Positions 4,964 to 18,355 of a stretch of 64,000 bases of DNA are shown here, one piece after another (within the stretch, counting starts at the first letter, position 1; each line of letters starts with the position of its first letter). The position numbers were made by a program, and so were the translations under genes. The DNA is from Arenicella xantha (GTDB taxonomy: Bacteria; Pseudomonadota; Gammaproteobacteria; Arenicellales; Arenicellaceae). The notes under the pieces are model-generated. The model made no database searches, was not told the origin of the DNA, and saw nothing but the letters and a program-made list of their open reading frames with translations. Location of the stretch: positions 1-64,000 of the forward strand of contig NZ_QNRT01000004.1 in assembly GCF_003315245.1 (NCBI RefSeq), given 5' to 3'.

Positions 4964-6931
4964 TTGAAAATCCAACTTGTTACGCCCTTTATTATATTGG
5001 TCTTATTAGCGGCGTGTTCTGAATCTCCGAGGCCGGATACGAGTGAAGCGGAACTGCTGTTAACTGCGTCGCCTGAGGCTGAACCAAATGTGGTTAGCGA
5101 AACCACGGAAGTTACCTCCGCCGTCGAACCTTCTCTCGACCAAAATGCGGCATTTAACCAGTTCAAAGAAAATTTTCTTGAAAGAACTTGGGCGCTAAAT
5201 CCTAGCTATGGAGTCTATGTTGGTTTTTATAAATATGACGATGTTCTTATGGTACCTGACGGTGAGCTACGAGGCCGCCGCAGAGCTTTTTATGTGAATG
5301 AGCTTCGTGCTCTCAAGGCGTTCAATGCGAACCGCTTAACAGCATCCAACGCGACCGATTTAGCTATTATTGAAGGCCAGTTAAGATCAAGCTTGTGGTA
5401 TATCGACTCTTTCAGAAGCTTTGAATGGAATCCCGCTCAATATAATCCAGCTGGTGCGTTCGGTGTTATTTTGAATACCGATTATAAGCCGTTGAAAGAG
5501 CGTATCTTGACCATCTCGAAGCGTCTAGAGAATGTTCCAGCGTACTATTCGGCGGCGATTGCTAACTTAAAGGTTCCGACCGAACCACATTTGGGCTTGG
5601 CAATTCAGCAGACCAAGGGCGCACTTGGCATGTTTACCAAGCTAATACCTGAAAAGGCATCAGCCGTAGAGTTAAGCCCCGAAGAGTCAGCGGCATTTGA
5701 TACGAATTTAGCTGCAGCAGTTAGTGCTGTATCGAACTACGCGGAATGGTTAGATGCGAAACAGGCCGAACTCGCTGAAACTGGTGAAGTGAGAAGTTTT
5801 CGGATCGGCGCTGAGTTGTACGAAAAGAAGTTTAAGCACGATATAGCGTCTAGTTATACTGCCCAAGAACTCTACCAGCTCGCCGTCGCCAGTAAGACCG
5901 ACTTGCATAATAATATGATCGCGATTACCGAGGAATTGTGGCCTAAATATTTTGCCGAGGAAGCAATACCGGAGAATCGATTGGTCGCGGTTAAGCAGCT
6001 CATTGATCTCTTGGCAAAGCGGCACGTCGAGCGTGATCAATTTGTTGATGAAATTCGTCGTCAAATTCCAATTCTTCAAGCGTTCGTCGACGAGCATGAA
6101 TTGTTGGACTCCGACCCAACTCGTCCACTCGTGGTTAGACTGACACCAGAATACCAACGTGGTTTTGCCGGAGCTTCAGTTAACGCCCCAGGGCCGTATG
6201 ATGCTACTGCGAATACTTACTACAACGTATCGCCGCTTGACGATTATACCGAGGAGCAAGCTGAAAGTTATTTGCGTGAGTACAATCATTGGATATTGCA
6301 GATCTTGAATATCCATGAGGCGATTCCGGGACATTACACTCAGTTGATGCATGCAAATAAATCACCGAGCAAAATCAAATCGGTTTTTGGAAATGGTGCA
6401 ATGGTTGAAGGTTGGGCGGTCTATTCAGAGAGAATGATGCTGGAAGCCGGCTATGCTAACAACGAGCCAGAGATGTGGTTGATGTACAGCAAATGGAATC
6501 TGCGCGTGGTGGTCAATACTATTCTTGATTACAGTGTTCAGGTGCTTGGCATGGAGCGCGAAGCAGCACTCGACATGTTGATGAATGAAGCATTTCAAGA
6601 GCGTACCGAAGCTGAGGGGAAGTGGCGTAGAGCGACGGTTTCGCAAGTGCAGTTAACTAGCTATTTCACAGGATATTCAGAGATTTACGCGTTTCGTGAA
6701 GAGCTAAAAGCGAAGATGGGTGAGGCGTTTAATTTGCGCGATTTCCATAATAAATTTTTGAGTTATGGTAATGCGCCGGTGCCGGTGATCAAAAAGCTAA
6801 TGTTGAACGAGTTGGCCGCCTTACCTCAAAAATCAGCGAGTGATGTTGAGCAACCATTGCTTGATGACTCGGTGCAGTCGCTTAAAGTGGAGGCTGATAA
6901 GCTTGAGCAGCCGACTGACGCGATTGAATAA
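4964..6931 (+). CDS. DUF885-family exported lipoprotein, putative metallopeptidase
   Basis: The protein begins with a lipoprotein signal: hydrophobic core PFIILVLL and lipobox LAAC with the modified Cys at about residue 19, so it should be anchored in the outer membrane or periplasm. The rest matches the DUF885 family. The key motif HEAIPGH (H451, E452, H457) is the family's HExxPGH signature, and a downstream GWAVYSE supplies a possible third ligand Glu. This looks like a zinc peptidase, but substrates of the family are poorly known. The start is TTG at 4964, preceded by a good GGAG seven bases upstream. The C-terminal ~30 residues after the domain are acidic and low in complexity. It is divergent from fadH and ends 28 bases before the convergent sensor kinase gene. 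Confidence 0.85.
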   Translation: MKIQLVTPFIILVLLAACSESPRPDTSEAELLLTASPEAEPNVVSETTEVTSAVEPSLDQNAAFNQFKENFLERTWALNPSYGVYVGFYKYDDVLMVPDGELRGRRRAFYVNELRALKAFNANRLTASNATDLAIIEGQLRSSLWYIDSFRSFEWNPAQYNPAGAFGVILNTDYKPLKERILTISKRLENVPAYYSAAIANLKVPTEPHLGLAIQQTKGALGMFTKLIPEKASAVELSPEESAAFDTNLAAAVSAVSNYAEWLDAKQAELAETGEVRSFRIGAELYEKKFKHDIASSYTAQELYQLAVASKTDLHNNMIAITEELWPKYFAEEAIPENRLVAVKQLIDLLAKRHVERDQFVDEIRRQIPILQAFVDEHELLDSDPTRPLVVRLTPEYQRGFAGASVNAPGPYDATANTYYNVSPLDDYTEEQAESYLREYNHWILQILNIHEAIPGHYTQLMHANKSPSKIKSVFGNGAMVEGWAVYSERMMLEAGYANNEPEMWLMYSKWNLRVVVNTILDYSVQVLGMEREAALDMLMNEAFQERTEAEGKWRRATVSQVQLTSYFTGYSEIYAFREELKAKMGEAFNLRDFHNKFLSYGNAPVPVIKKLMLNELAALPQKSASDVEQPLLDDSVQSLKVEADKLEQPTDAIE

Positions 6932-6959
6932 ACACTTAATAGCCAATAAAGTTTGCTTG

Positions 6960-8702
6960 CTAGTGCCTCGGTGTCTGGGTTTTCAACAATGTTTGCATCA
7001 TTCGTTGTAACTGAGTTGCCGAGGCCGGTTTGTGTAAGAGCAATGCATCAGCTGACTGAGCCTCGATAATTCGCTCAGTTCCGGTGTCACCAGTAATAAT
7101 GATTGCGGGTACATGGTGACCTAAATGCAGGCGCAAATCGTGAATGGCTTCGCGTCCAGTGCGACCTTCACGTAGGCGATAGTCAACCAGTAACAAATCA
7201 ATAGGTTGCTCGCCGACTAGCTCAATCGCCTCAATTGCAGACTCAGCGTCGAGGCATGTGCAGCCCCAAGTTTGAATCAATGCGCGCATCGATGCTCTGA
7301 TGCGTGCGTCGTCATCAATGACTAAGACCTTGGCTCCACTAAAATCAACGGCGCGGTTATGGCGCGGCAAATCTTCAATTATTTCCGCAGTCGAGTATGG
7401 CAGGGCGAACCGAAACACGGTTCCACGTCCGAGTACTGAACTCACCTGGATCTCGCTATCGATCGTTTTTGCTAGACCTTGTGCAATCGCGAGCCCTAAT
7501 CCAAAGCCCTTATGAGCATCACGCTCGGGGTTGTCTAGCTGGTTGAATTCTCGAAAAATATCGTTAAGTTTGTCCGGTGCGATCCCAATGCCGGTATCCC
7601 ACACTTCAATAAGCAACGCGTCTCGCGGGCGGGTGCGGCAGGCTACAAGTAGGCCACCTTTAGTGGTGTATCGAATAGCGTTGGCAATAAGGTTGCGTAA
7701 TATGAGTTCGACAATAAATGGGTCTGAATGTGCTGCCGCAATGGTTTCTCGAGTTCGGTAGATTAAGTCATGTTCGTCGGCGGTTGGTGCGAGCTCAGCT
7801 TCGAGCTTAGAGAACAACGATTGCACGAGAAAGGGCTTAGGCTCCGAGGATATCGCGCCGGCGTCTAATTTGGAGATATTCAGTAGCGAGTCCAACATGG
7901 TTCTAGTCGAATCAATGGCGGACATCATATGTTGTTGAATTTCACTTTGCTGACTGTTCAAAGACGTCCCGCCAATGGTTTCAGTCAAAAGGCCGAGGGC
8001 ATGTAGAGGCTGACGAAGGTCATGGCTAGCGGAAGCGAGAAAGACTGACTTGGCGCGATTGGCTTCATCGGTTTGGGTAAGCGCCGATCGCAACTTGTGG
8101 ATTAGACCGTCGTTCTCGAACCTTAAAATGATCGCTTGGCGAATCGTGCTTTGCAAGTTCAGGGCAAACAGGCTTAAGGTCACTAGCAGCAACATCACGC
8201 CGACGGCGAGGCCTTGGTACACCGGTTCATCGCGGTGGTAGAGTGCATACGCCAGTGCACACATTTGGGTGATGTTAAAGCCAAGAAAAACTGGTAGCCA
8301 GCTGGACTGGGTAGCAATACTTCCAGCGGCCAATCCGGTGCAGGCGAAGACAATCCACATGGTGATTTCGGGCGTGGCATCCGGTACGACCATTAAGGGT
8401 AATAAGGCAAACAAGGTGCCATTGACAATGGCCATAATGGTTTCCCATACGCCGATCAAGCCCGGTTTAGTTAATGCGTCGTTGCGGTAAATAAAGGCGC
8501 GTGCAATGCCGAAGCAGTTGAGTAGCACAATAATACTTGCCCAAAGCACCACTCGGGTATCGCCTGACCAACGATACACCAGCCCTGCAGCCAGCACTAC
8601 GACTAAGGTAAAGGCTAAGATTTCTGGTAATAGATTGCGATGTAACTGCTTTAGCTGTTCGCGCAGTACCGTGTCGCGGATTGTCGACGAGAAAAATTTC
8701 AT
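6960..8702 (-). CDS. Hybrid sensor histidine kinase / response regulator
   Basis: This 580-residue hybrid kinase has a hydrophobic N-terminal region with about six membrane segments (roughly 25-185). No recognisable extracytoplasmic sensor domain is present. The dimerisation/phosphoacceptor helix contains SASHDLRQPLHAL with His227. An ATPase domain (N box around LRNLIANAIRYT; G boxes DTGIGI and GFGLGLAI) follows. A C-terminal receiver domain (about 457-575) has IDDD at its start and the phosphoacceptor Asp507 in LLLVDYRL. The SHDLRQPLHALGL form is typical of kinases paired with NarL/LuxR-type regulators. It is probably co-transcribed with the response regulator gene 43 bases upstream. The stimulus is unknown. 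Confidence 0.9.
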   Translation of the reverse strand: MKFFSSTIRDTVLREQLKQLHRNLLPEILAFTLVVVLAAGLVYRWSGDTRVVLWASIIVLLNCFGIARAFIYRNDALTKPGLIGVWETIMAIVNGTLFALLPLMVVPDATPEITMWIVFACTGLAAGSIATQSSWLPVFLGFNITQMCALAYALYHRDEPVYQGLAVGVMLLLVTLSLFALNLQSTIRQAIILRFENDGLIHKLRSALTQTDEANRAKSVFLASASHDLRQPLHALGLLTETIGGTSLNSQQSEIQQHMMSAIDSTRTMLDSLLNISKLDAGAISSEPKPFLVQSLFSKLEAELAPTADEHDLIYRTRETIAAAHSDPFIVELILRNLIANAIRYTTKGGLLVACRTRPRDALLIEVWDTGIGIAPDKLNDIFREFNQLDNPERDAHKGFGLGLAIAQGLAKTIDSEIQVSSVLGRGTVFRFALPYSTAEIIEDLPRHNRAVDFSGAKVLVIDDDARIRASMRALIQTWGCTCLDAESAIEAIELVGEQPIDLLLVDYRLREGRTGREAIHDLRLHLGHHVPAIIITGDTGTERIIEAQSADALLLHKPASATQLQRMMQTLLKTQTPRH

Positions 8703-8745
8703 TAGTTACCGGCTATGCTGATCAGCCAATCCATTAACGCGATCA

Positions 8746-9366
8746 TTAAGTCGTGAGGCCCTCGCGTTGAGCTATCAAGATGGCTTCGGAGCGGTTCGAG
8801 GCGCCTAATGCGGCTAAGATGGCAGAGACGTGGACTCGCACGGTGTTTTCAGACATCTCTAGCTCTCGGGCAATAAGTTTATTCGGTTTGCCCTCGCATA
8901 GGTAGATCAGTACCTCAACTTGGCGTGGCGTCAAAGACTTCCCGATGCCGGCCGGCGATACGTAGTGGCTTGCGTCAGTATCTTCTGGAAAACAGGTGCC
9001 ACCGTTTAGCACATGCGAAATAGACGATACCATTTCTTCAGCCAGCGCAGCCTTGTTCAGAAAGCCCGCTGCACCAAGGTGGCGGGCATCATTGATCGCC
9101 GAGTGCTCAGAGCTTGCCGAGAGAATGATGATCGGGACTCCCGAGAACTTTTCTCTAAGCGGTTTAATACCGTCGATCCCGTTTAGGCCCGGTAAGTGGA
9201 TGTCGAGCAGGATGAGGTCAACGCTGGATTCGCAAAAGTCAAAAGCATCGCGAATGGAGCTGGCTTCGGAAATTCCTCGAGCCTCTCCAACCTGTGTCAG
9301 TATCATTTGCATGCCGGTACGAAACAGAGCGTGGTCGTCAACAATTAGTATGTGGGAATCTTTCAT
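8746..9366 (-). CDS. NarL/LuxR-family response regulator
   Basis: A 206-residue two-domain regulator. The receiver domain (1-120) has the acidic pocket VDD at 9-11, phosphoacceptor Asp55 in LILLDIHLPG, and the conserved switch and Lys region near LNKAAL. The C-terminal LuxR-type helix-turn-helix (about 143-206) reads LTPRQVEVLIYLCEGKPNK and SENTVRVHVSAIL, the usual NarL-type DNA-binding segment. It lies immediately upstream of the hybrid kinase gene on the same strand, so the two probably form one phosphorelay. Targets are not visible. Confidence 0.92.
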   Translation of the reverse strand: MKDSHILIVDDHALFRTGMQMILTQVGEARGISEASSIRDAFDFCESSVDLILLDIHLPGLNGIDGIKPLREKFSGVPIIILSASSEHSAINDARHLGAAGFLNKAALAEEMVSSISHVLNGGTCFPEDTDASHYVSPAGIGKSLTPRQVEVLIYLCEGKPNKLIARELEMSENTVRVHVSAILAALGASNRSEAILIAQREGLTT

Positions 9367-9522
9367 GCGCTCTCCCGCGTCACAATAGGGTCAGGAGACT
9401 TGGAGGTCTCGAAGATTCGATTATAGAGCTTATGAAAATTTCCACTAGTCCAATTGTGCTACAGACAGTTTGTCGTTGGCACCATACACTGATCTCAATC
9501 AAACCAATATCGAATTCATGAC

Positions 9523-10335
9523 GTGAAGAATAATCAAACAACGATTGCTAGACCAAGCATCAATAGCGGGTCGCTATCGATGCCTGCTCAGCAAGAAATT
9601 GGGGTTACTTCCGATCATCGAGTCAGCAAACATTTTGATACGTCGGCAATTTTTGTCGTACCAAAAGGGGTCAGCGAGTTAAGGATATTCGCAGTGGGTG
9701 CTTCAGGAGGATCGGGAAATGGGTTTGGGGTCCTCTTGAACAACGGTGGTGAAGGAGGCACCGCTGTATCGAATGTCAGCGTTAGTCCGGGTGAGTCACT
9801 GGATGTTTTCGTCGGTATTCGCGGCATGGATGGCGGTCTGCCGGAAGGTGGTTCTGGTGGCTGTTCCGCTTCAGGGTTTGAGGGCGGAGCAGCTGCTTCA
9901 GGGACGGCCGGCGGTGGCGGTGGCGGTGGCGGTGCCAGTGGCGTTGTGCGCATTCGTGGCAATGAAGTATTAGTGGTCGCTGGCGGTGGTGGTGGCGGCA
10001 GCGGGGTTGGAAACGGTGGTTTGATTGGCCGCGGAGGTGCTGGTGGGTCATTTGGCACTAACGGGCGCGGTTTGTCGCCTGGCCGGGTGAAGCAAGGGCT
10101 CGGAACAAGAGGTGGTGATGGACCTGCCAATTCCACCGTCGGAAGTGGCGGCGGCGGTGGCGGTATCTATGGCGGCGGCGCTGGTTCGGAACTCAATAGT
10201 GCCATTGGTGGTGGTGGGGCCGGTGGAACCGGTACCCTCGAAGCCGGAAGTCTAAGTGCTGACGGTGGCGGCTCCAATTGTGGCAGCGTTAGTATTTCTT
10301 ATGATGCCCCATTGTTGGATAAGAATTCTAAATAG
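9523..10335 (+). CDS. Glycine-rich repeat protein of unknown function
   Basis: The 270-residue product has a short N-terminal region, a beta-rich segment around TFVVP-like residues (FVVPKGVSELRIFAVGASGG), and then about 190 residues dominated by Gly runs separated by Ser, Ala and Asn. This resembles the glycine-rich domains found in secreted adhesin-like proteins, where the opening strand is followed by Gly loops. No signal peptide is visible with the GTG start at 9523. An ATG at 9580 is an alternative, also without a signal. The codon pattern is strongly GGC/GGT biased, so the apparent long frames on the opposite strand are composition artefacts. Its 3' end overlaps the convergent alpha/beta hydrolase gene by 37 bases. 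The function is unknown. Confidence 0.7.
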   Translation: MKNNQTTIARPSINSGSLSMPAQQEIGVTSDHRVSKHFDTSAIFVVPKGVSELRIFAVGASGGSGNGFGVLLNNGGEGGTAVSNVSVSPGESLDVFVGIRGMDGGLPEGGSGGCSASGFEGGAAASGTAGGGGGGGGASGVVRIRGNEVLVVAGGGGGGSGVGNGGLIGRGGAGGSFGTNGRGLSPGRVKQGLGTRGGDGPANSTVGSGGGGGGIYGGGAGSELNSAIGGGGAGGTGTLEAGSLSADGGGSNCGSVSISYDAPLLDKNSK

Positions 10336-11207
10336 GCCGTGGTCACGGCGTCGGCGGCTTCGACGTGTGGATAATGCCCAATTGTATCAAGCGCTTTAAG
10401 GTGATCCAAACGACAGCCTAGTTCCTTATACCGGTCAACCAAATGTGACCCTGATACCGGATCAATTGAACCATTAATCAGCGATATCGGTATCTGTGCG
10501 TTTTGTAGCGCGGTGACCCAACGCTCTCGATGTTCACGTCGATCTAAGATGTAAGTGATTAAATTGTGGAATACATGTCGACCGTGATTGAAATTAATAA
10601 GCTCCCAGAATTCTTGTAGTTCGCGATCACTTGGCTTGGTTTGTGGCCCAAATACACTCGAAAATGATTGTTTAAACTGTTCAAAGCCGGTGAACTTATT
10701 GATGTATTTTCCTAACCGGCTAAGCATCAATTTTTGAATAATTAGCGCTCGGTGCGTCTCTGGGAATAGTCCACCGTTTAATAAGCACAGAGACTGCCAG
10801 CTGCCGATACCTGAGCCATCTAGTTGGCGAGCTAACAATTCCTGAGCTACCGATACGCCGTAATCGTGGGCTAGGACATGGTAATTTTCTATCCGCAATT
10901 GGCCAATCAATTCTTCAAATAAATCCGCTTGCTGATGTATGGAGTAGGTGCGGCTATCAGGCTTGTCGGAGAAACCAAAGCCGTGCATGTCTAAACTCAC
11001 GAGTCGATACTGTTTGACGAATGTGTCCCACATTGGTAGCCAGTCGAATGACGAGGTGGGAAATCCATGAATAAGAACAATCACCGGGAGCCGAGCGTCG
11101 CCCTCATCAATAGTAAAAATTGTTTTGCCTGCGAGTGTTCGGTAACGGCCGCGGTTAAACCAGTTTGCAACAGCTTCGCTGTGAAAGGTGTGAGGACTTG
11201 TAGACAT
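10299..11207 (-). CDS. Alpha/beta hydrolase, MEST-like, Asp nucleophile
   Basis: A 302-residue alpha/beta-hydrolase. The oxyanion-hole region is HGFPTSSFDW. The nucleophile elbow reads LAHDYGVSVAQELL, with Asp rather than Ser, as in haloalkane dehalogenases and epoxide hydrolases. The acid is probably the Asp in NGSIDPVSG, and the catalytic His lies in TIGHYPHVE near the C-terminus. From memory, several stretches (GFGFSDKP, HDYG..VAQELL, NGG.FPETHR, the VFGP segment, HYP) recur in the vertebrate MEST/PEG1 protein, a broader group of unknown substrate. It is transcribed away from the tetR gene across the 48-bp palindrome, so it is probably under TetR control. A dehalogenase or epoxide hydrolase role is possible but unproven. 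Confidence 0.82.
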   Translation of the reverse strand: MSTSPHTFHSEAVANWFNRGRYRTLAGKTIFTIDEGDARLPVIVLIHGFPTSSFDWLPMWDTFVKQYRLVSLDMHGFGFSDKPDSRTYSIHQQADLFEELIGQLRIENYHVLAHDYGVSVAQELLARQLDGSGIGSWQSLCLLNGGLFPETHRALIIQKLMLSRLGKYINKFTGFEQFKQSFSSVFGPQTKPSDRELQEFWELINFNHGRHVFHNLITYILDRREHRERWVTALQNAQIPISLINGSIDPVSGSHLVDRYKELGCRLDHLKALDTIGHYPHVEAADAVTTAYLEFLSNNGAS

Positions 11208-11238
11208 AGAGAGACCAAAGGCGAGTGATTATGCGACG

Positions 11239-11286
11239 AGTTTTATATAAACTGAACTTGACGTCAAGTTCAGTTTATATAAAACT
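11239..11286. promoter_or_regulatory. Perfect 48-bp palindrome, probable TetR operator
   Basis: The two 24-base arms (11239-11262 and 11263-11286) are exact reverse complements with no spacer. The centre reads TGAACTTGACGTCAAGTTCA and the flanks are AT-rich. It sits between the divergently transcribed alpha/beta hydrolase and tetR genes, 43 bases before the tetR ATG. TetR-family proteins bind as dimers to palindromes in this position, so it is likely an operator controlling both directions. It is unusually long and perfect, and two dimers could bind. Confidence 0.85.
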
Positions 11287-11328
11287 GTTGTCTTTAGTTC
11301 TAAAATCTTAAGTGCGTAATAATTTAGT

Positions 11329-11931
11329 ATGAAACAGTTACCAACTCAGCAGCGTGCATTGCGCAAGCGACAAGCGCTCATTGACGCCGCTGAACAGGAG
11401 TTTTCAGAGAGTGGTTTCGAAGTTGCAACGGCTAAGTCTATTGCTGCTCGAGCCGGTGTTGCGGTGGGAACGTTTTATCAATACTTTGATAATAAACACG
11501 ATATTTTACGCGAAATTGCTGAGCAAGGATTTGCTGAACTACATGCTCGCATCCCGTTACTTGATCTGCAGCTTGCGGATGGCTCACGAGATAGAATCGT
11601 CTCGTTATTTTCTGAAACCTTAGACTTTGTGTATCAGTACCATGCGCGACGCCCTGAGCTGCACCGAGTGTTGGAGCAACGTCGCGTGGTAGATGCTGAT
11701 TTGAGCGAGATAATGTGCCGCGGTGAGGGTGTGCTGCGTGCTCGCGTGCTTCAGTTTGTTCAGAGCTTTAACACGCCTCATGCCGAGATCGTCGCCAGTA
11801 ATTTGTTTGCTATGGCAGAAGGGCTTGTTCATCGCCATGTATTTGAGCCTAACCAGCATAATCCTCAACAGGTAATTCAGATTGGCGCTGAAATGCTGTC
11901 TAGTTATTTTTTAACCCATTACCCCCAATAA
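11329..11931 (+). CDS. TetR/AcrR-family transcriptional regulator
   Basis: A 200-residue regulator with a typical N-terminal TetR helix-turn-helix (about 15-60): LIDAAEQEFSESGFEVAT, then IAARAGVAVGTFYQYFDNK. The C-terminal ligand-binding helices are not specific enough to name an effector. It starts at an ATG 43 bases after the 48-bp palindrome and ends six bases before the amidohydrolase gene, so the two form an operon. The arrangement predicts autoregulation and control of the divergent hydrolase. The inducer is probably an acylated or amide substrate of the linked enzymes, but this is inference. Confidence 0.92.
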   Translation: MKQLPTQQRALRKRQALIDAAEQEFSESGFEVATAKSIAARAGVAVGTFYQYFDNKHDILREIAEQGFAELHARIPLLDLQLADGSRDRIVSLFSETLDFVYQYHARRPELHRVLEQRRVVDADLSEIMCRGEGVLRARVLQFVQSFNTPHAEIVASNLFAMAEGLVHRHVFEPNQHNPQQVIQIGAEMLSSYFLTHYPQ

Positions 11932-11937
11932 AATCTT

Positions 11938-13842
11938 ATGAAATTCGACACGCTTATTCAAAATGCTCGCGTATTCAATAACGGTGAGCCACCGGTTACC
12001 GAAGACATCGCTATTCTCGATGGAAAGATTGTAAAGCGGGGGCATAAATTGCCATCGGCTGAGGCGGGCCGTGTTATCGATGCAACCGGGTTGTGGGCCA
12101 TGCCTGGCTTGTTCGATATTCATACGCATTATGATTTGGAGTTAGAAGTTGCGCCCGGATTGCCCGAATCAACTCGGCATGGAACCACCACGGTGGTGAT
12201 TTCTAATTGCAGCTTAGGACTCGCATATGGCAATCAGCGAGAAGGTGCTATCGACCCAATTGTAGATTGTTATGCTAGGGTCGAAAATATGCCAAAGTCA
12301 GTTCTGCGTGCTTGTGCTGACAAGATCGATTGGTCTACGCCAGAAGGGTACTTAGAGCATCTTGATGCGCTTAATCTTGGGCCGAATGTGGTGACCATGA
12401 TTCCGCATTCAATGTTGAGAATTGAAGCGATGGGATTTGAAGCCAGCGTAACGCGCGACCCAACGTCGGACGAAGTTGAACAAATGCGTACTAGTTTGCG
12501 TGCTGGACTGCGGGCCGGCTACGTAGGCTTTTCGACCGACGCGCTCCCGTTTCACTATTTAGCGAATCAGCCGAACTGCCATAAAACTATACCGACTCAG
12601 TTTGCTAAATACGATGAAATTAAGCAGCTGACACAAGTTGTTCGCGAAGAGGACGGTATTTGGCAAGCTACACCACCAAAGGATCGCCCGCTCGAGGTAT
12701 TCAAAACTTTCTTGCTGTCGTCTGGCCGCTTGCACGGAAAACCACTGCGAACTACGGTAGTTGCCGCCCTTGATGTGGCGGCTAATCGCAATCTAATTAA
12801 GCTAACTCGGATTCTGAACGGAATAATTAACTCAAAATTCTTTCGTGGCGATTTTTACATGCAGGCGTTAGGTGCGCGATTTAAAATATGGTCGGACGGA
12901 GCTGTGACGCCAATTGCCGAGGAAATTCCTGAACTAAGAGCGTTAAACGAAACTGATCTGGAAGACCGTGCAGCTCGTCAAAAAATATTGACTGATCCCG
13001 ATTACATAAAGCTTTTTCGGGCCATGTGGATGAAAGGAAAAACCGGCTTTGGATTGGCTCGAATAAAGCGTTTGCTACGAGTTGAAGACTACGCGTTTGA
13101 TCGAGATATGGCAGGCATGACTGTTGACCTGTGTCCTTTGAAGGAATGGGAGGGCAAGACTTTTCAGGCTCTGTTTGAGCGCGTACTCAATGCTAATCGT
13201 GGCACGGCGACTGACGTCACTGAAGCTGAGCAATTAATCATCTCTAGGGATTTCTTCTGGGTGAGTGACGAAGCCGATTTTATGCTGCAAATTCTGCGTA
13301 CCTTTGACACTGAGTTGTCGTGGTATACCGTCACGGCTAATCGCGATATACGCACGGTTCGAAAGCTCTTGATGGACCCAGCATTGCTTCCGGGCTTTAA
13401 TGACAGCGGTGCTCATTTAACGAATATGGCGTTTTATGATGTTAACCTGCGCAGCCTCAAACTGGCCGCAGAAGGTGGTGAAGCGGATGCAAACTATATG
13501 GTAAAACGTCTAACCAAAGATGCGGCGGATGTATTTGGCGTGGCCCGCGGGACTATTTATCAGGGCGATATTGCCGATTTGATTTTGGTGGATCCTAAGC
13601 AGTTAGCTATGTATGACGGCGAGGCCCATGTGCAACGAATTTACCGTGATGAGTTTCAGCATCCACAACTGGTGAATCGATCTGATCAAGTTGTACCATT
13701 AGTGCTAATTAACGGTCAGGTTGCTTGGCAGAACGATGCATTTTCCAGTGAACTTGGGCGACGCAAAATGGGGTCTTTGCTAAAGCCGACTCATCTGCAG
13801 GAGTCACAGGCTCAGGTTGCTGCAGCCGCAGTCGCAGCATAA
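11938..13842 (+). CDS. Amidohydrolase, N-acyl-D-amino-acid deacylase type
   Basis: A 634-residue amidohydrolase-superfamily enzyme. It has the opening beta domain (FDTLIQNARVFNNG, then DGKIVKRG) and the first metal motif in PGLFDIHTHYDLE. The overall organisation and length match the D-aminoacylase branch, including the HGTTTVVISNCSLG stretch after the HxH motif and the late GFNDSGAHLTNM segment. Members hydrolyse N-acyl-D-amino acids or related cyclic amides. It follows tetR by six bases and is probably repressed by it. The last ~25 residues are Ala/Gln-rich and look like a disordered tail. The exact substrate is not predictable; dihydropyrimidinase-like activity is less likely from the sequence pattern. 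Confidence 0.82.
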   Translation: MKFDTLIQNARVFNNGEPPVTEDIAILDGKIVKRGHKLPSAEAGRVIDATGLWAMPGLFDIHTHYDLELEVAPGLPESTRHGTTTVVISNCSLGLAYGNQREGAIDPIVDCYARVENMPKSVLRACADKIDWSTPEGYLEHLDALNLGPNVVTMIPHSMLRIEAMGFEASVTRDPTSDEVEQMRTSLRAGLRAGYVGFSTDALPFHYLANQPNCHKTIPTQFAKYDEIKQLTQVVREEDGIWQATPPKDRPLEVFKTFLLSSGRLHGKPLRTTVVAALDVAANRNLIKLTRILNGIINSKFFRGDFYMQALGARFKIWSDGAVTPIAEEIPELRALNETDLEDRAARQKILTDPDYIKLFRAMWMKGKTGFGLARIKRLLRVEDYAFDRDMAGMTVDLCPLKEWEGKTFQALFERVLNANRGTATDVTEAEQLIISRDFFWVSDEADFMLQILRTFDTELSWYTVTANRDIRTVRKLLMDPALLPGFNDSGAHLTNMAFYDVNLRSLKLAAEGGEADANYMVKRLTKDAADVFGVARGTIYQGDIADLILVDPKQLAMYDGEAHVQRIYRDEFQHPQLVNRSDQVVPLVLINGQVAWQNDAFSSELGRRKMGSLLKPTHLQESQAQVAAAAVAA

Positions 13843-13965
13843 TCCAAGCCTGTATGGTGTAAATCTAAATATAAATGCGAATTATTCCTATTTGCGGTTG
13901 AGTGTGGAAATGTGTAACGGTATATTGCGGCCTATTCAAATAACCCACACTTTACCTTTACTTAC

Positions 13966-16182
13966 ATGCAAAAGAGGAATGTTGTGCTGGCGCTGGCGGC
14001 GATGTTGTGCCCAGTGCTGGCAAGTGCTGACGGTGCGTCCGAGGCGTTGGAAGAAGTTGTAACAATCGGTTCTAAAGCTGATATTGATACAATCACTGGT
14101 GCGGCTCACCTTATTGATGAGGCCACACTAGACAAGTTCGAGTACAGCGATATTCAGCGTATCTCGCGTGAGGTTCCTGGCGTCTCAATCCAGATCGAAG
14201 ATGGTTATGGCCTGCGACCCAATATCAGCATTCGCGGTGTGGCAACTGAACGCAGTGGCCGTATCACATTGCTTGAAGACAATGTGTTAATCGCACCAGC
14301 ACCGTATTCGGCACCTTCGGCCTATTATTTTCCGACCGCTGGACGCATGCAATCGTTCGAAGTAGTTAAAGGGCCTGCGGCGATCACGCAGGGCCCATAC
14401 ACTATCGGTGGTGCGTTAAACATGGTTTCAACAGCCATCCCTGCAGAGCGCAAAGGCAAGTTGATGATGGAAGTCGGGCAGGACAGCACCGCCCGTGTAC
14501 ATGCCGTCTATGGCGACCGTACTGACTCAGGCTTTGCGTACCTACTTGAGGCACACCAGTGGCAGTCTGACGGGTTTCAGCAAGTTGACCGCTCATCTAC
14601 TGATACCGGCTTGGATGTCACCGATTACATGGTAAAGCTTGCGTACGCTCCGGAAGGCAGTGCTCACTCGGTGGAGCTTAAATTGCAAAAAGCCGACCAA
14701 GATTCAAATCAGAGTTATTTAGGTTTGACTGACGCTGATTTCCGACGCGATGCTGATCGTCGCTACGGCCTCTCAGAATTAGATACAATCTCGACGGCTC
14801 ACGAACAGGCGATATTACGATATCGTTTTGAATTTTCCGAGTCACTCAGCTTCTCGGCTACCGCGTATAACAACACTCATGAGCGTGATTGGTTCAAGAC
14901 CGAGGGCATGGATCTAGATGGCAGCGATGATGCGCAAGCGTTTGCACAAACTAGCTGGTCAAATATCATTCAGGCTATCAATCTGAACGATGAAGTTGAT
15001 GGGTTTTCGAGTGACCAGCTGCAAGCCATACTCGACGGTAGTCTAGATACCGCAGCAGGTAGTATTCAACTACGCAGTAATGCGCGTGAATATTATTCAC
15101 GCGGTCTACAGTTAAACATGGATTGGGCGATCTTGACCGGTGAGGTTAAGCATACGCTCGAAGCTGGAATTCGTTACCACGAAGATGAAGAAGATCGTCT
15201 ACAACGTAATAGCACTTACCAACAATTGGCCGGTAAATTGGTTTTAAATGACGTTGGTGAGCTTGGTAATGCTGGCAATCGAGTGCAGCAGGCTGAAGCC
15301 GTTGCGTTATACGCTTATGATCGCATCGAGTTTGGTGATTGGGTGTTTACCCCGGGTTTCCGTTATGAATCGATTGACCAAAACCGGACGCGTTTTACCG
15401 GCGGTGTTGATCGAGTGGTGCGCGATGGCCGCGAGAATCATACTTCGGTTCTGTTGCCTGGGTTTGGCGCCATATATCGCCTAAACGACAGCTTGTCGCT
15501 AGTGGCTGGTGTGCACAAAGGCTTTACTGCGCCGAGTAATTCACCAGGCGTTCGTGAAGAGGAGGCAATTAATACTGAGTTTGGCTTGCGTTATGTGAAT
15601 GACAACACTCGACTCGAATTGATGGCCTTTATCAGTGATTATCAGAACTTGCTCGGCGAGTGCACAGCGTCATCCGGAACTGGTTGTGAAGTTGGTGATG
15701 CCTTTAACGGTGATGCTGCAAAAGTGCGCGGTATCGAAGCGCTTTTTAGCAACCGTGTGGCGCTGGCCAATGACCTTAATCTGACCACATTAATCTCCTA
15801 TACCTATATCGATGGTGAGTTTGATACGAATATCGCTGACACGGCTTTTTTTGGTGATGTAAGCGCAGGTGACCCTATTCCTTATATTCCGGAGAACCAG
15901 CTGCAGCTATCCCTTGGCATCGAAGGTGGTAAATGGCAAGTTAACGCAAACCTTAGTTATGTCGATGAGGTCTGTACTAGAGCTTCATGTGGAGACTTTG
16001 AACAGACCGAAAGCTCCTCCACTTTGGATTTGGCAGCCCAGTACTATTGGCAAGACAACATTAAACTATTTAGTCGTCTAGAAAATCTGACAGACGAGCG
16101 CGATATTATGGGGCGTCAACCATATGGTGCTAGGCCTAACAAAAGCCGAACTGCATCGATTGGGGTCGAATTAACGTTCTAA
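13966..16182 (+). CDS. TonB-dependent outer-membrane receptor, FecA-like
   Basis: A 738-residue TonB-dependent receptor. It has a signal peptide (MQKRNVVLALAAMLCPVLASA), a TonB-box-like EEVVTIGS just after it, a plug domain (about 45-160, with RISREVPGVSIQ, ISIRGV and GPYTIGGALNM), and a 22-strand barrel ending in a final aromatic Phe. The C-terminal block LENLTDERDIMGRQPYGARP is typical of FecA-type receptors. An internal GTG at 13984 has a better Shine-Dalgarno sequence (AGAGGA), but the ATG at 13966 gives the proper positively charged signal peptide. A terminator follows. The next genes are the lasso cyclase and precursor in the same direction. Proteobacterial lasso loci often carry such receptors for uptake or sensing of the product, so this one may bind the lasso peptide or a siderophore. 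Confidence 0.93.
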   Translation: MQKRNVVLALAAMLCPVLASADGASEALEEVVTIGSKADIDTITGAAHLIDEATLDKFEYSDIQRISREVPGVSIQIEDGYGLRPNISIRGVATERSGRITLLEDNVLIAPAPYSAPSAYYFPTAGRMQSFEVVKGPAAITQGPYTIGGALNMVSTAIPAERKGKLMMEVGQDSTARVHAVYGDRTDSGFAYLLEAHQWQSDGFQQVDRSSTDTGLDVTDYMVKLAYAPEGSAHSVELKLQKADQDSNQSYLGLTDADFRRDADRRYGLSELDTISTAHEQAILRYRFEFSESLSFSATAYNNTHERDWFKTEGMDLDGSDDAQAFAQTSWSNIIQAINLNDEVDGFSSDQLQAILDGSLDTAAGSIQLRSNAREYYSRGLQLNMDWAILTGEVKHTLEAGIRYHEDEEDRLQRNSTYQQLAGKLVLNDVGELGNAGNRVQQAEAVALYAYDRIEFGDWVFTPGFRYESIDQNRTRFTGGVDRVVRDGRENHTSVLLPGFGAIYRLNDSLSLVAGVHKGFTAPSNSPGVREEEAINTEFGLRYVNDNTRLELMAFISDYQNLLGECTASSGTGCEVGDAFNGDAAKVRGIEALFSNRVALANDLNLTTLISYTYIDGEFDTNIADTAFFGDVSAGDPIPYIPENQLQLSLGIEGGKWQVNANLSYVDEVCTRASCGDFEQTESSSTLDLAAQYYWQDNIKLFSRLENLTDERDIMGRQPYGARPNKSRTASIGVELTF

Positions 16183-16215: not shown

Positions 16216-16247
16216 AAAAAGGGCCGGTTTCATATCGGCCCTTTTTT
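16216..16247 (+). terminator. Terminator after TonB-dependent receptor
   Basis: The inverted repeat GGGCCG / CGGCCC (16221-16226, 16236-16241) is extended by an A-run/T-run pairing and ends in six T residues. It separates the receptor gene from the lasso cyclase gene, so these are probably separate transcripts. Confidence 0.88.
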
Positions 16248-16287
16248 GTGCTTATCAGATTTTAAGCGCTGCTGTTACACTCACTAC

Positions 16288-18141
16288 ATGAGTGCATTTT
16301 TTGTAGCGATCAACCGTTCCGGTATTCCATTTAGTGAGCCTTGCGCTGCCCGCATGATGCAGCAAATTAAGGTGTTCGGTCACGATGCCGAACGTCTGGT
16401 TGTGTGTGACCATTATGCGCTTGGTTATCAAGCGCGGTGGTCGGTTCCCGAGGAGGTAGACGAAGTACAGCCACTCTACGACGCACAATCGCAGCAATGG
16501 TTCGTATTCGACGGTCGTGTCGATAATCGCGCCGCGTTAATTGCAGCCTTGAACGATCCGCAGTTAACTCAGCGTAGCGATGGTCAGCTGCTATTTCGGT
16601 TCTGCCAACAGTTTGGTGAGTCTCGGCTAAACGACGTGATCGGGTCATTTGTCTTTGTGTTGTTCGATGTGCGGCGTAATCAGGTCATTGCAGCGCGCGA
16701 CCCAATGGGCGGGCGTTATCTTTGTCATGCGCTGACCGACGAGCATCTGTTATTTGCCACCTATGAAATGGCTATCGTGGCCCACGGCAGCGTAAATTAT
16801 CATTTAAACCAAGAAAAAGTCGCGCGAACTGTCGTTAGTGAACTCGAGAGTGTGCCGAGCAGTACGATTGATGGCGTGATCCCGCTTAAGCCCGGTGAAT
16901 GCGTTACGACGACGACTCAAAATATAAGGTTTCAGCGCTTTTACAAAGCCCCTAAATCGTCTGTCGGAAAACCGCTAAGTGACGCAGAGTATGCGCGTGA
17001 ATTTCGGCGGCTGTTAATACAAGCAGTGCAGCGGCGAATGCGGAGCGTCGGTAAGGTTGGAAGCCTGCTCAGTGGTGGATTGGATTCTATTCCTGTCACC
17101 ATTGCGGCGCAAGGGTTGGTGAGTGAGCCGATCTATGCCTTTTCCTGGACCTTTGATGATTATCCTGATGTCGATGAACGGTGCTATTCAGAACCTATCT
17201 GTCGTCAATTTGGTATTCAACAAGTTCCGATTACCTGCGACCATACTTGGCCCCAACTCGACGCTTCGACCCTCACAAACCCAGTCTTTCCATTTGGTAT
17301 ACCGTATTCGGAATGGCAACAGGCGGCCTTTCAAGAGGCAAAAGCCGTTGGGGTGAAAACAATTCTCACTGGAATTCACGGTGATCTGCTCTATGGTCAC
17401 TTTCATACCCTGCTATTTGAGTTGGCGGCAGCAGGGCGACTTTCGGATGCATGGAGTGAGCTGCGGCGAATATGGCGGGCGGTACCTAATAAGTGGAGTG
17501 TTGTTAAATATTACTTGTTGTTACCGTTGCCCGGCATGGAGCGATTTGTGGCGTGGCGCGCACGGAGAAAAAACCATCAAAACCCAATTCTACAATCGTC
17601 GGTAGCTGCTTCAATTAAACATCGACGACACTGGCTCGCGGCGGAGAGTCGAGAAGCGCGGCGCTCTCAGCAGTGGCAGGTCGTATTTGATGGTTTTGCA
17701 GGCGAAGATGCGGCTTTAGGTCGCTATCTGGAGGCTAAGTATGGGATCGACCGCAGATACCCGTTCCGTGACCGTGACCTGTGTGAATTTATGATGTCGG
17801 TGCCGGCGGATCAGCTTTACTACAAAGGTATTAAACGACCGATAGTGAAGCGCGCGTTCGCACCAGAGCTTAGTGCGGAACTTCTGGCCCGTAACAATAA
17901 GACAAGCTTCGATAGTGTTATTCGTGACGGAATTTTGTCGGACACAGAGAACCATAAATGGTTCGCCCGCCCAGCGCCCGAGTGGTCTAAATATGTAAAA
18001 CAGTGTAACTTTAATGAGCTGGACCACGACAATGTTGACGTACTTACCTTAAAGTGGCGATGCGGATACTATGAATACTGGAAATCCGTATGCTACAATC
18101 CGATTTTCTGCGAGTTGGTGCAGAGTGACAAAAATGCGTAA
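16288..18141 (+). CDS. Lasso peptide macrolactam synthetase (C protein)
   Basis: A 617-residue asparagine-synthetase-like protein. The N-terminal class-II glutaminase-like domain keeps FDGRVDNRAALIAAL and RDPMGG, but position 2 is Ser, not the Cys nucleophile (MSAFFVA). This is typical of lasso cyclases that do not need glutaminase activity. The synthetase domain has the ATP-pyrophosphatase loop SGGLDS at 262-267 and TGIHGD at 361-366. It should adenylate the side-chain acid at ring position 7-9 and join it to the core N-terminus. The ATG at 16288 is chosen because an upstream TTG lies inside the preceding terminator; its ribosome site is weak. The precursor gene starts 25 bases after its stop. 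A role in another amide-forming pathway is possible, but the adjacent precursor makes lasso synthesis by far the best call. Confidence 0.88.
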   Translation: MSAFFVAINRSGIPFSEPCAARMMQQIKVFGHDAERLVVCDHYALGYQARWSVPEEVDEVQPLYDAQSQQWFVFDGRVDNRAALIAALNDPQLTQRSDGQLLFRFCQQFGESRLNDVIGSFVFVLFDVRRNQVIAARDPMGGRYLCHALTDEHLLFATYEMAIVAHGSVNYHLNQEKVARTVVSELESVPSSTIDGVIPLKPGECVTTTTQNIRFQRFYKAPKSSVGKPLSDAEYAREFRRLLIQAVQRRMRSVGKVGSLLSGGLDSIPVTIAAQGLVSEPIYAFSWTFDDYPDVDERCYSEPICRQFGIQQVPITCDHTWPQLDASTLTNPVFPFGIPYSEWQQAAFQEAKAVGVKTILTGIHGDLLYGHFHTLLFELAAAGRLSDAWSELRRIWRAVPNKWSVVKYYLLLPLPGMERFVAWRARRKNHQNPILQSSVAASIKHRRHWLAAESREARRSQQWQVVFDGFAGEDAALGRYLEAKYGIDRRYPFRDRDLCEFMMSVPADQLYYKGIKRPIVKRAFAPELSAELLARNNKTSFDSVIRDGILSDTENHKWFARPAPEWSKYVKQCNFNELDHDNVDVLTLKWRCGYYEYWKSVCYNPIFCELVQSDKNA

Positions 18142-18166
18142 GTTTATGAATAATAAAAGAGAAAAA

Positions 18167-18355
18167 ATGTCTGTTGCCTCGGTTGAGAAAACTGATGTTG
18201 CTTCGACAAATTCGGCTCGGAAGCCATACCAAAAGCCCGTTTTGACGTGCTATGGAGATGTGCGTGATGTCACACTTGGGCCAACATTCGGTGGTGGCGA
18301 GAGTGGATGCGAAGGCATATTCAAAGTTGGCCCCGGTGGTTGCCCTGGACCTTAA
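18167..18355 (+). CDS. Lasso peptide precursor (A protein)
   Basis: A 62-residue precursor. The leader (1-37) contains KPYQKPVLTCYGDVRDVT and matches the lasso leader pattern Y-x2-P-x-L-x3-G-x5-T-x: Y21, P24, L26, G30 and T36 at position -2. Cleavage after Leu37 would free a 25-residue core (18278-18352) starting GPTFGGGE. Gly1 can link to Glu8 for an eight-residue ring. Cys11 and Cys22 lie in the tail and could form a disulphide, and the core ends GCPGP. The ATG at 18167 has an AAGAG-type site five bases upstream; in-frame ATGs at 18134 and 18146 are less well placed. Order is cyclase then precursor, the reverse of most clusters. No B1 or B2 gene is adjacent. The sequence is not one I recognise as a characterised lasso peptide. 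Confidence 0.87.
   Translation: MSVASVEKTDVASTNSARKPYQKPVLTCYGDVRDVTLGPTFGGGESGCEGIFKVGPGGCPGP

Follow-up and report, generated by a model that had tools for sequence, protein, structure and literature searches.

Lasso peptides with a YxxPxL leader and discrete processing proteins, i.e. a separate RRE (PqqD) protein, B1, and a leader protease, B2, form a described group, and TbiB1 and TfuB1 are lasso peptide RREs of this kind (PMC13381572, in the text available). Class IV is defined, in the accessible parts of PMC9266682 and PMC13352647, by one disulphide whose two cysteines both lie in the tail, with LP2006, pandonodin and the felipeptins as examples. In clusters of the paeninodin/pseudomycoidin type, B1 comes with a kinase and a nucleotidyltransferase (PMC9266682, within the same limits). 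For the cebulassopins, a split lasso operon was reported in 2026 (Am. Chem. Soc. journal; known by its title), and maturation proteases encoded away from their precursors are described for lanthipeptides in the available portion of PMC8960859.

The lasso precursor described in the current study comes from a 64,000-nt stretch of the Arenicella xantha genome (hereafter, the window), and its pathway is probably scattered over three chromosomal loci. The gene identities, their conservation, their genus-wide co-occurrence and the kinship of a kinase were read directly from the genomes. Clustering, which is usual for lasso genes but not strictly defining, is lacking: a profile search of the 64-kb window for B1 and B2 gave no match, and the RRE and the transglutaminase-like protease are found elsewhere in the genome, on C8 and C3, respectively. 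Lanthipeptide maturation proteases are of a type other than B2, and lanthipeptides are another RiPP class; it is the remoteness of the protease from the precursor that Arenicella has in common with the systems outlined in PMC8960859. The likeness to the cebulassopin system, a lasso pathway with split genes as proposed here, is drawn from its title. Compared with the TbiB1/TfuB1-type systems, as far as the available text of PMC13381572 describes them, the leader motif, RRE type, cyclase family and Gly1-Glu8 spacing are the same, but in Arenicella the enzymes are unclustered, the cyclase gene precedes the precursor gene and the cyclase is divergent. As a peptide it adds a new member to a kind already known, and the proposed three-locus scatter, kept across the genus, is a variant arrangement. 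A literature search on split or unclustered lasso genes returned nothing relevant beyond the cebulassopin citation, and none of the papers searched combined 'Arenicella' with 'lasso peptide', most subscription papers lying outside the search. A genome search built on clustered genes would turn up only an A-C (precursor-cyclase) pair with no protease, or might overlook it, in a lasso pathway that apparently occupies three loci and is retained so in many species.

The precursor gene (nt 18167–18355, + strand) encodes 62 aa, MSVASVEKTDVASTNSARKPYQKPVLTCYGDVRDVTLGPTFGGGESGCEGIFKVGPGGCPGP. Two upstream in-frame ATG codons (+ strand), one at 18134 that overlaps the stop of the cyclase gene and one at 18146, are possible alternatives that leave the true start open, although the core is the same with either. 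The leader scores 22.4 bits against NCBIfam model NF033521 (lasso_leader_L3), above its cut-off of 19, and a Pfam search of the precursor gave zero matches. Its recognition stretch, YQKPVLTCYGDVRDVTL (nt 18227–18277, +), ends in Thr(-2)-Leu(-1) and is followed by a core of 25 aa, GPTFGGGESGCEGIFKVGPGGCPGP (nt 18278–18352, +), which begins at Gly38 of the precursor and has a predicted ring from Gly1 to Glu8, with Cys11 and Cys22 in the tail. In an alignment of 18 precursors, 16 from Arenicella and two from another family of the same order, the leader Tyr, Pro, Gly-Asp-Val-Arg-Asp and Thr are invariant, so that Y-x2-P and GDVRD-x-T occur in 18/18, as are Gly1, Gly5, Glu8 and Ser9 of the core; the tails vary in both length and sequence. 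This conservation rules out a chance ORF, and the invariant Glu8 falls within positions 7–9, where a lasso core has its ring-forming Asp or Glu. The preliminary description had claimed a lasso precursor at these coordinates, with Gly1 and Glu8 spaced for a ring and two cysteines in a 25-residue core, and all of this is borne out by the leader model, by the genus-wide conservation and by the ORF translation. Its masses, calculated by hand (2245.0 and 2243.0 Da), agree with the recomputed monoisotopic values, 2244.993 Da (lasso) and 2242.978 Da (lasso plus disulphide). It had also proposed expression with B1 and B2 from a relative, having missed that B1, B2 and a kinase seem to be encoded at other places in this genome; with these candidates available, enzymes from a relative may not be needed. 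That nt 18167–18355 encode a lasso precursor is therefore supported, its product being predicted.

Just upstream lies the gene for a predicted lasso (macrolactam) cyclase of 617 aa, an asparagine-synthetase homologue (nt 16288–18141, +). Its best NCBIfam match is NF033535 (E = 2.7e-67, 227.8 bits), yet this score is below the curated 525-bit cut-off of the model, which suggests a divergent lasso cyclase; Pfam domains PF00733 and PF13537 are both above cut-off. The SGGLDS ATP loop is present, SGG-DS being invariant in 17 aligned cyclases, and the N-terminus is Met-Ser, without the Cys2 that is the catalytic residue of glutaminases. In the single pair of genomes compared (G005/G015), dN/dS was 0.089 for the cyclase (dS 2.0, near saturation) and 0.079 for the precursor (dS 0.55), values that indicate purifying selection on both genes in that pair. 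A TonB-dependent receptor gene (nt 13966–16182) precedes the cyclase gene and was considered as a part of the system. It adjoins the cyclase in at least 4 of 16 A-C loci (the window, L040, L041 and L052; a lower bound, as several loci end at contig ends). A terminator-like hairpin (nt 16216–16246, +; -19.1 kcal/mol by ViennaRNA for 16216–16250, followed by a T-run; not in the consensus scan) lies between the two genes and suggests separate transcripts, and the receptor was rejected. Elsewhere in the window, a glycine-rich ORF (nt 9523–10335) finds no counterpart in Pfam or NCBIfam at E ≤ 1; it is conserved in G015 (71%) and G010 (70%), in the vicinity of the same genes.

Cyclase matches at E ≤ 1e-40 were found in 24 of the 145 genomes searched, the window's own included. 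Within Arenicella, an orthologue is present in this genome and in 15 of 17 others, and in all 15 a precursor that shares the leader and the 8-residue ring stands next to it, so that the absence of similar leader-core pairs from related genomes, which the preliminary description had named as a refutation, was not observed; a phosphofructokinase gene (PF00365) also adjoins each of these 15 pairs. Contig ends truncate the cyclases of G003 and G011, and the match in G011 is interrupted by two stops. The pair was not found in G001 and G012, and neither was the phosphofructokinase gene, so that an assembly gap is likely in these two genomes; that gene is present in three genomes of sister genera (G018–G020). 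Profile and homology matches in the sister genera, where the rpsF loci were not read, gave no A-C pair, no lone B2 and no PqqD of the rpsF-linked type; G018 has two PqqD genes of other kinds, G019 none and G020 two in long frames. Arenicella appears to hold a genus-wide family of predicted proteobacterial lasso peptides, and the combination of a conserved ring with a variable tail across the genus suggests a native role.

There are four PqqD matches above cut-off in the window's genome. The candidate B1 (C8:11340-11540) lies beside rpsF, together with a nucleotidyltransferase (PF14907) and an HPr-kinase-like protein, and was found beside rpsF in all 18 Arenicella genomes. In G003, G008, G010 and G014, all of which have the A-C pair, it is the only PqqD at E ≤ 0.001. 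A PqqD linked to trmB (L058) was rejected as B1, as it is not universal and is absent from these same four genomes despite the A-C pair. The best solved relatives of the rpsF-linked B1 are TbiB1 (E = 1.5e-10) and TfuB1. All 17 rpsF-linked B1 proteins read in the right frame retain the RRE residues for a Tyr leader (Asn/Asp; the row for L238, in a wrong reading frame, was left out), but these residues also occur in most trmB-linked PqqDs and in part of the second-cluster B1s (see below), and so do not discriminate between candidates as proof of pairing. In the dN/dS comparison, the dS of B1 is saturated.

The kinase accompanies the rpsF-linked B1 in the window's genome and in 15 of 17 relatives, none being seen in the stretches from G013 and G016. 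As in the paeninodin/pseudomycoidin-type clusters (PMC9266682, available text), a kinase and a nucleotidyltransferase stand with B1, but here they are at a separate locus from the precursor, and none of the 18 cores has the C-terminal Ser. The protein keeps a P-loop (AESGAGKST), an SDD and an LHAG motif, which resemble the His-Lys-Asp-Asp residues that the same partly available source gives for lasso kinases. Pfam yields no kinase match for it, and for its homologues in L004 and L141 the matches to Hpr_kinase_C fall below cut-off. The name HPr-kinase-like combines these two sub-cut-off matches with the P-loop and recognition of the protein, and is weaker than the names gspC-like, mgtE, rpsF, trmB and phosphofructokinase, each of which has support from Pfam or NCBIfam. 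Known lasso kinases modify a C-terminal Ser. The cores end in Pro in 14/18 and in Ser in 0/18, so that a site other than the C-terminus is likely; our guess is Ser9, which is invariant and sits beside the ring.

Two Transglut_core3 matches occur in the window's genome, one in a second lasso cluster (L004, C3) and the other in a lone gene between gspC-like (T2SS-C-like) and mgtE genes (match at C3:59953-60291). The lone protein passes NCBIfam model NF033537 (lasso_biosyn_B2), and a comparison with solved structures gave no informative match. A lone B2 beside gspC-like and/or mgtE genes is present in 13 of 18 Arenicella genomes; in G012 it adjoins gspC, mgtE being located on a different contig. 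The gene is disrupted in G006 and was not found in G002, G003 and G011. Another B2 type occurs in all four genomes that lack an intact lone B2 (G002, G003, G006 and G011) vs 1 of the 13 that have it (p = 0.0021 if the genomes are independent, a value that ignores phylogeny); G016, in which neither the lone B2 nor mgtE was found, was left out of this count. At the position that we take to be the acid of the putative protease triad, 13/13 lone B2s have Glu, in contrast to Asp in the B2s of relatives in the order (alignment by eye).

Evidence that the scattered genes belong together comes from loci in other bacteria. A search of contigs with the cyclase alignment gave 148 relatives, of which the best 80 were kept (78 loci); 14 of these loci are of the Arenicella type (L117–L130) and 64 are others. 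Among the 64, 15 carry a precursor that, read by eye, has Gly1, Glu/Asp8 and Ser/Thr9. These 15 were picked by precursor residues, ahead of the kinase comparison, as an A-C subfamily, from which L148 was omitted since it lacks this type of precursor, although its cyclase E-value is equally good. They derive from Gammaproteobacteria, Thermoanaerobaculia and other Acidobacteriota, Anaerolineae and a deltaproteobacterium. Three of these loci (L139, L141 and L171) have the gene order cyclase, precursor, kinase, B1 and B2 (with B2 on the opposite strand in L139). Five gammaproteobacterial contigs (L131, L133, L134, L136 and L142) have a cyclase-precursor-kinase module, with B1 and B2 about 8–10 kb away in a second cluster, an arrangement of two modules, one of them with B1/B2, that suggests shared processing enzymes. 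Neither B1 nor B2 was found by profile in about 10 kb on each side of L132 and L138.

The rpsF-linked kinase scores 57–92 bits against the kinases of 12 of the 15 subfamily loci and at most 33.5 bits against those of 26 other matched loci (L132 has no kinase by profile, and L140 and L143 have an unmatched kinase on the opposite strand). In a tree of 56 kinases, restricted to proteins of 181–479 aa, it forms a clade with all 12 of the kinases directly downstream of the modules and with no others (support 0.979), and on the two-module contigs the related kinase is the module's own and not that of the neighbouring cluster. Of the links that tie the rpsF locus to the genes of the window, this kinship is the strongest. 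Scores for B1 and B2 do not differ overall between the subfamily and other lasso loci (Mann-Whitney p = 0.10 and 0.14), and trees of these short proteins were too poorly resolved to be used as evidence of linkage. The five best B1 hits and the five best B2 hits are all in A-C subfamily loci; all five of the former, and several of the latter, belong to the neighbouring clusters of the gammaproteobacterial relatives, and kinship of the organisms possibly explains them.

Given what these families are established to do, RRE binding to YxxP, cleavage after Leu37 and formation of the Gly1-Glu8 lactam would be expected. The B1 protein beside rpsF would bind the YxxP leader, the lone B2 protease would cleave after Thr36-Leu37, and the cyclase would activate Glu8 and join it to the freed amine of Gly1 around the tail, giving the 8-residue ring. 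Cys11 and Cys22 would then be oxidised to form a tail-tail disulphide, a step that probably follows export to the periplasm, and the HPr-kinase-like protein beside B1 is probably part of the same pathway. We infer each of the enzymatic steps, as well as the threading, the disulphide and the export. No ABC transporter was seen among the genes read beside the parts (a reading of neighbours only).

For the product itself, two departures from this scheme have to be weighed. Threading cannot be read from sequence, and the ring is rich in Gly with few bulky residues, as might suit a peptide that is cleaved and lactam-cyclised but unthreaded (branched-cyclic). Characterised members of the lasso cyclase family give threaded products, however, and Phe15 followed by Lys/Arg16 is retained in the four closest cores, which makes the unthreaded form very unlikely. 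A ring with no disulphide, its cysteines being reduced or metal-binding, is somewhat less remote but still improbable. Cysteines are dispensable in the family, since 10 of the 18 cores have none, but the remaining eight have two and a single cysteine is never seen. The pairs lie at different tail positions among the species (11/22, 11/24, 11/25, 16/25 and 15/21), and the two-or-none pattern has a permutation p of 4e-5, or 7e-4 with four near-duplicate rows removed. This parity indirectly supports a predicted tail-tail, class IV-like bond, and some Arenicella peptides probably carry this rare disulphide. Known class IV lasso peptides come from other hosts. A Cys11-Cys22 bond, if formed, would place the peptide in class IV by the definitions cited above, since the two tail cysteines are shared with LP2006, pandonodin and the felipeptins (PMC9266682 and PMC13352647, as far as available), the differences being that the bond in Arenicella is predicted from sequence and that the pair is unconserved in the family.

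The assignment of B1 and B2 also has competitors. Since a second cluster in the window's genome (L004, C3) encodes B1 and B2 as well as a cyclase and a kinase, a true lasso precursor could be processed by that set and not by the scattered genes. The B2 type of this cluster is above the Pfam cut-off only in the window's genome among the 13 with a lone B2, so that most relatives with the A-C pair would lack it, and sub-cut-off matches in G007 and G015 match neither B2 by tblastn. Furthermore, the likely precursor of the second cluster carries a WxxP leader, and the B1 of that cluster most resembles the paeninodin-type RRE PbaB1 (9x90), in contrast to the rpsF-linked B1, which is closest to TbiB1 (leader types WxxP and YxxP of these RREs from the available text of PMC13381572), and processing by the second cluster has only a slim chance of being correct. 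A similarly small probability attaches to the idea that the scattered B1 and B2 serve a different RiPP and that the A-C pair is a relic. G001 and G012 do keep the lone B2 and the rpsF-linked B1 with no visible A-C pair, and the cyclase match with two stops in G011 points the same way, although it lies at a contig end. Against a relic are the absence from the G001 and G012 assemblies of the gene adjoining the pair as well, the purifying selection seen in the one pair compared, and the kinase at the B1 locus, which is of the A-C type. The three-locus pathway is thus the preferred reading.

A broader proposal, which we consider rather doubtful, is that A-C(-kinase) modules with no B1/B2 of their own represent dispersed lasso biosynthesis, in which the single unlinked B1/B2 set of Arenicella would be a genome-wide hub for every YxxP-GDVRD precursor, including that of a second A-C module in G005 and G015, and the unlinked HPr-kinase-like enzyme of the lineage would phosphorylate the invariant Ser9 and not a C-terminal Ser. 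The second module has a YGDVRD-leader precursor with a Gly1...Asp8 core beside a different cyclase, at 9320–9529 (-) of L230 in G015 and at 5993–6247 (+) of L231 in G005; profile searches found no B1 or B2 in the stretches of 19 kb and 10 kb that contain them, respectively.

Two further loci of the window's genome were recorded. The second lasso cluster, L004 (C3:358000-375000), extends from 6944 to 15715 and has a sulfotransferase gene (PF00685) between those for an HPr-like kinase and B1. Its likely precursor (15563–15715, minus strand) has a C-terminal Ser and matches no NCBIfam lasso model, and the gene set, precursor included, is also found in G002 (L235). At L058 (C1; 5726–9643), genes for an HPr-like kinase, a PqqD protein and a nucleotidyltransferase lie by trmB with an ORF of 526 aa that has no Pfam match; the ORFs read at this locus included no cyclase or B2. 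Several relatives also have its set of kinase, PqqD and nucleotidyltransferase genes.
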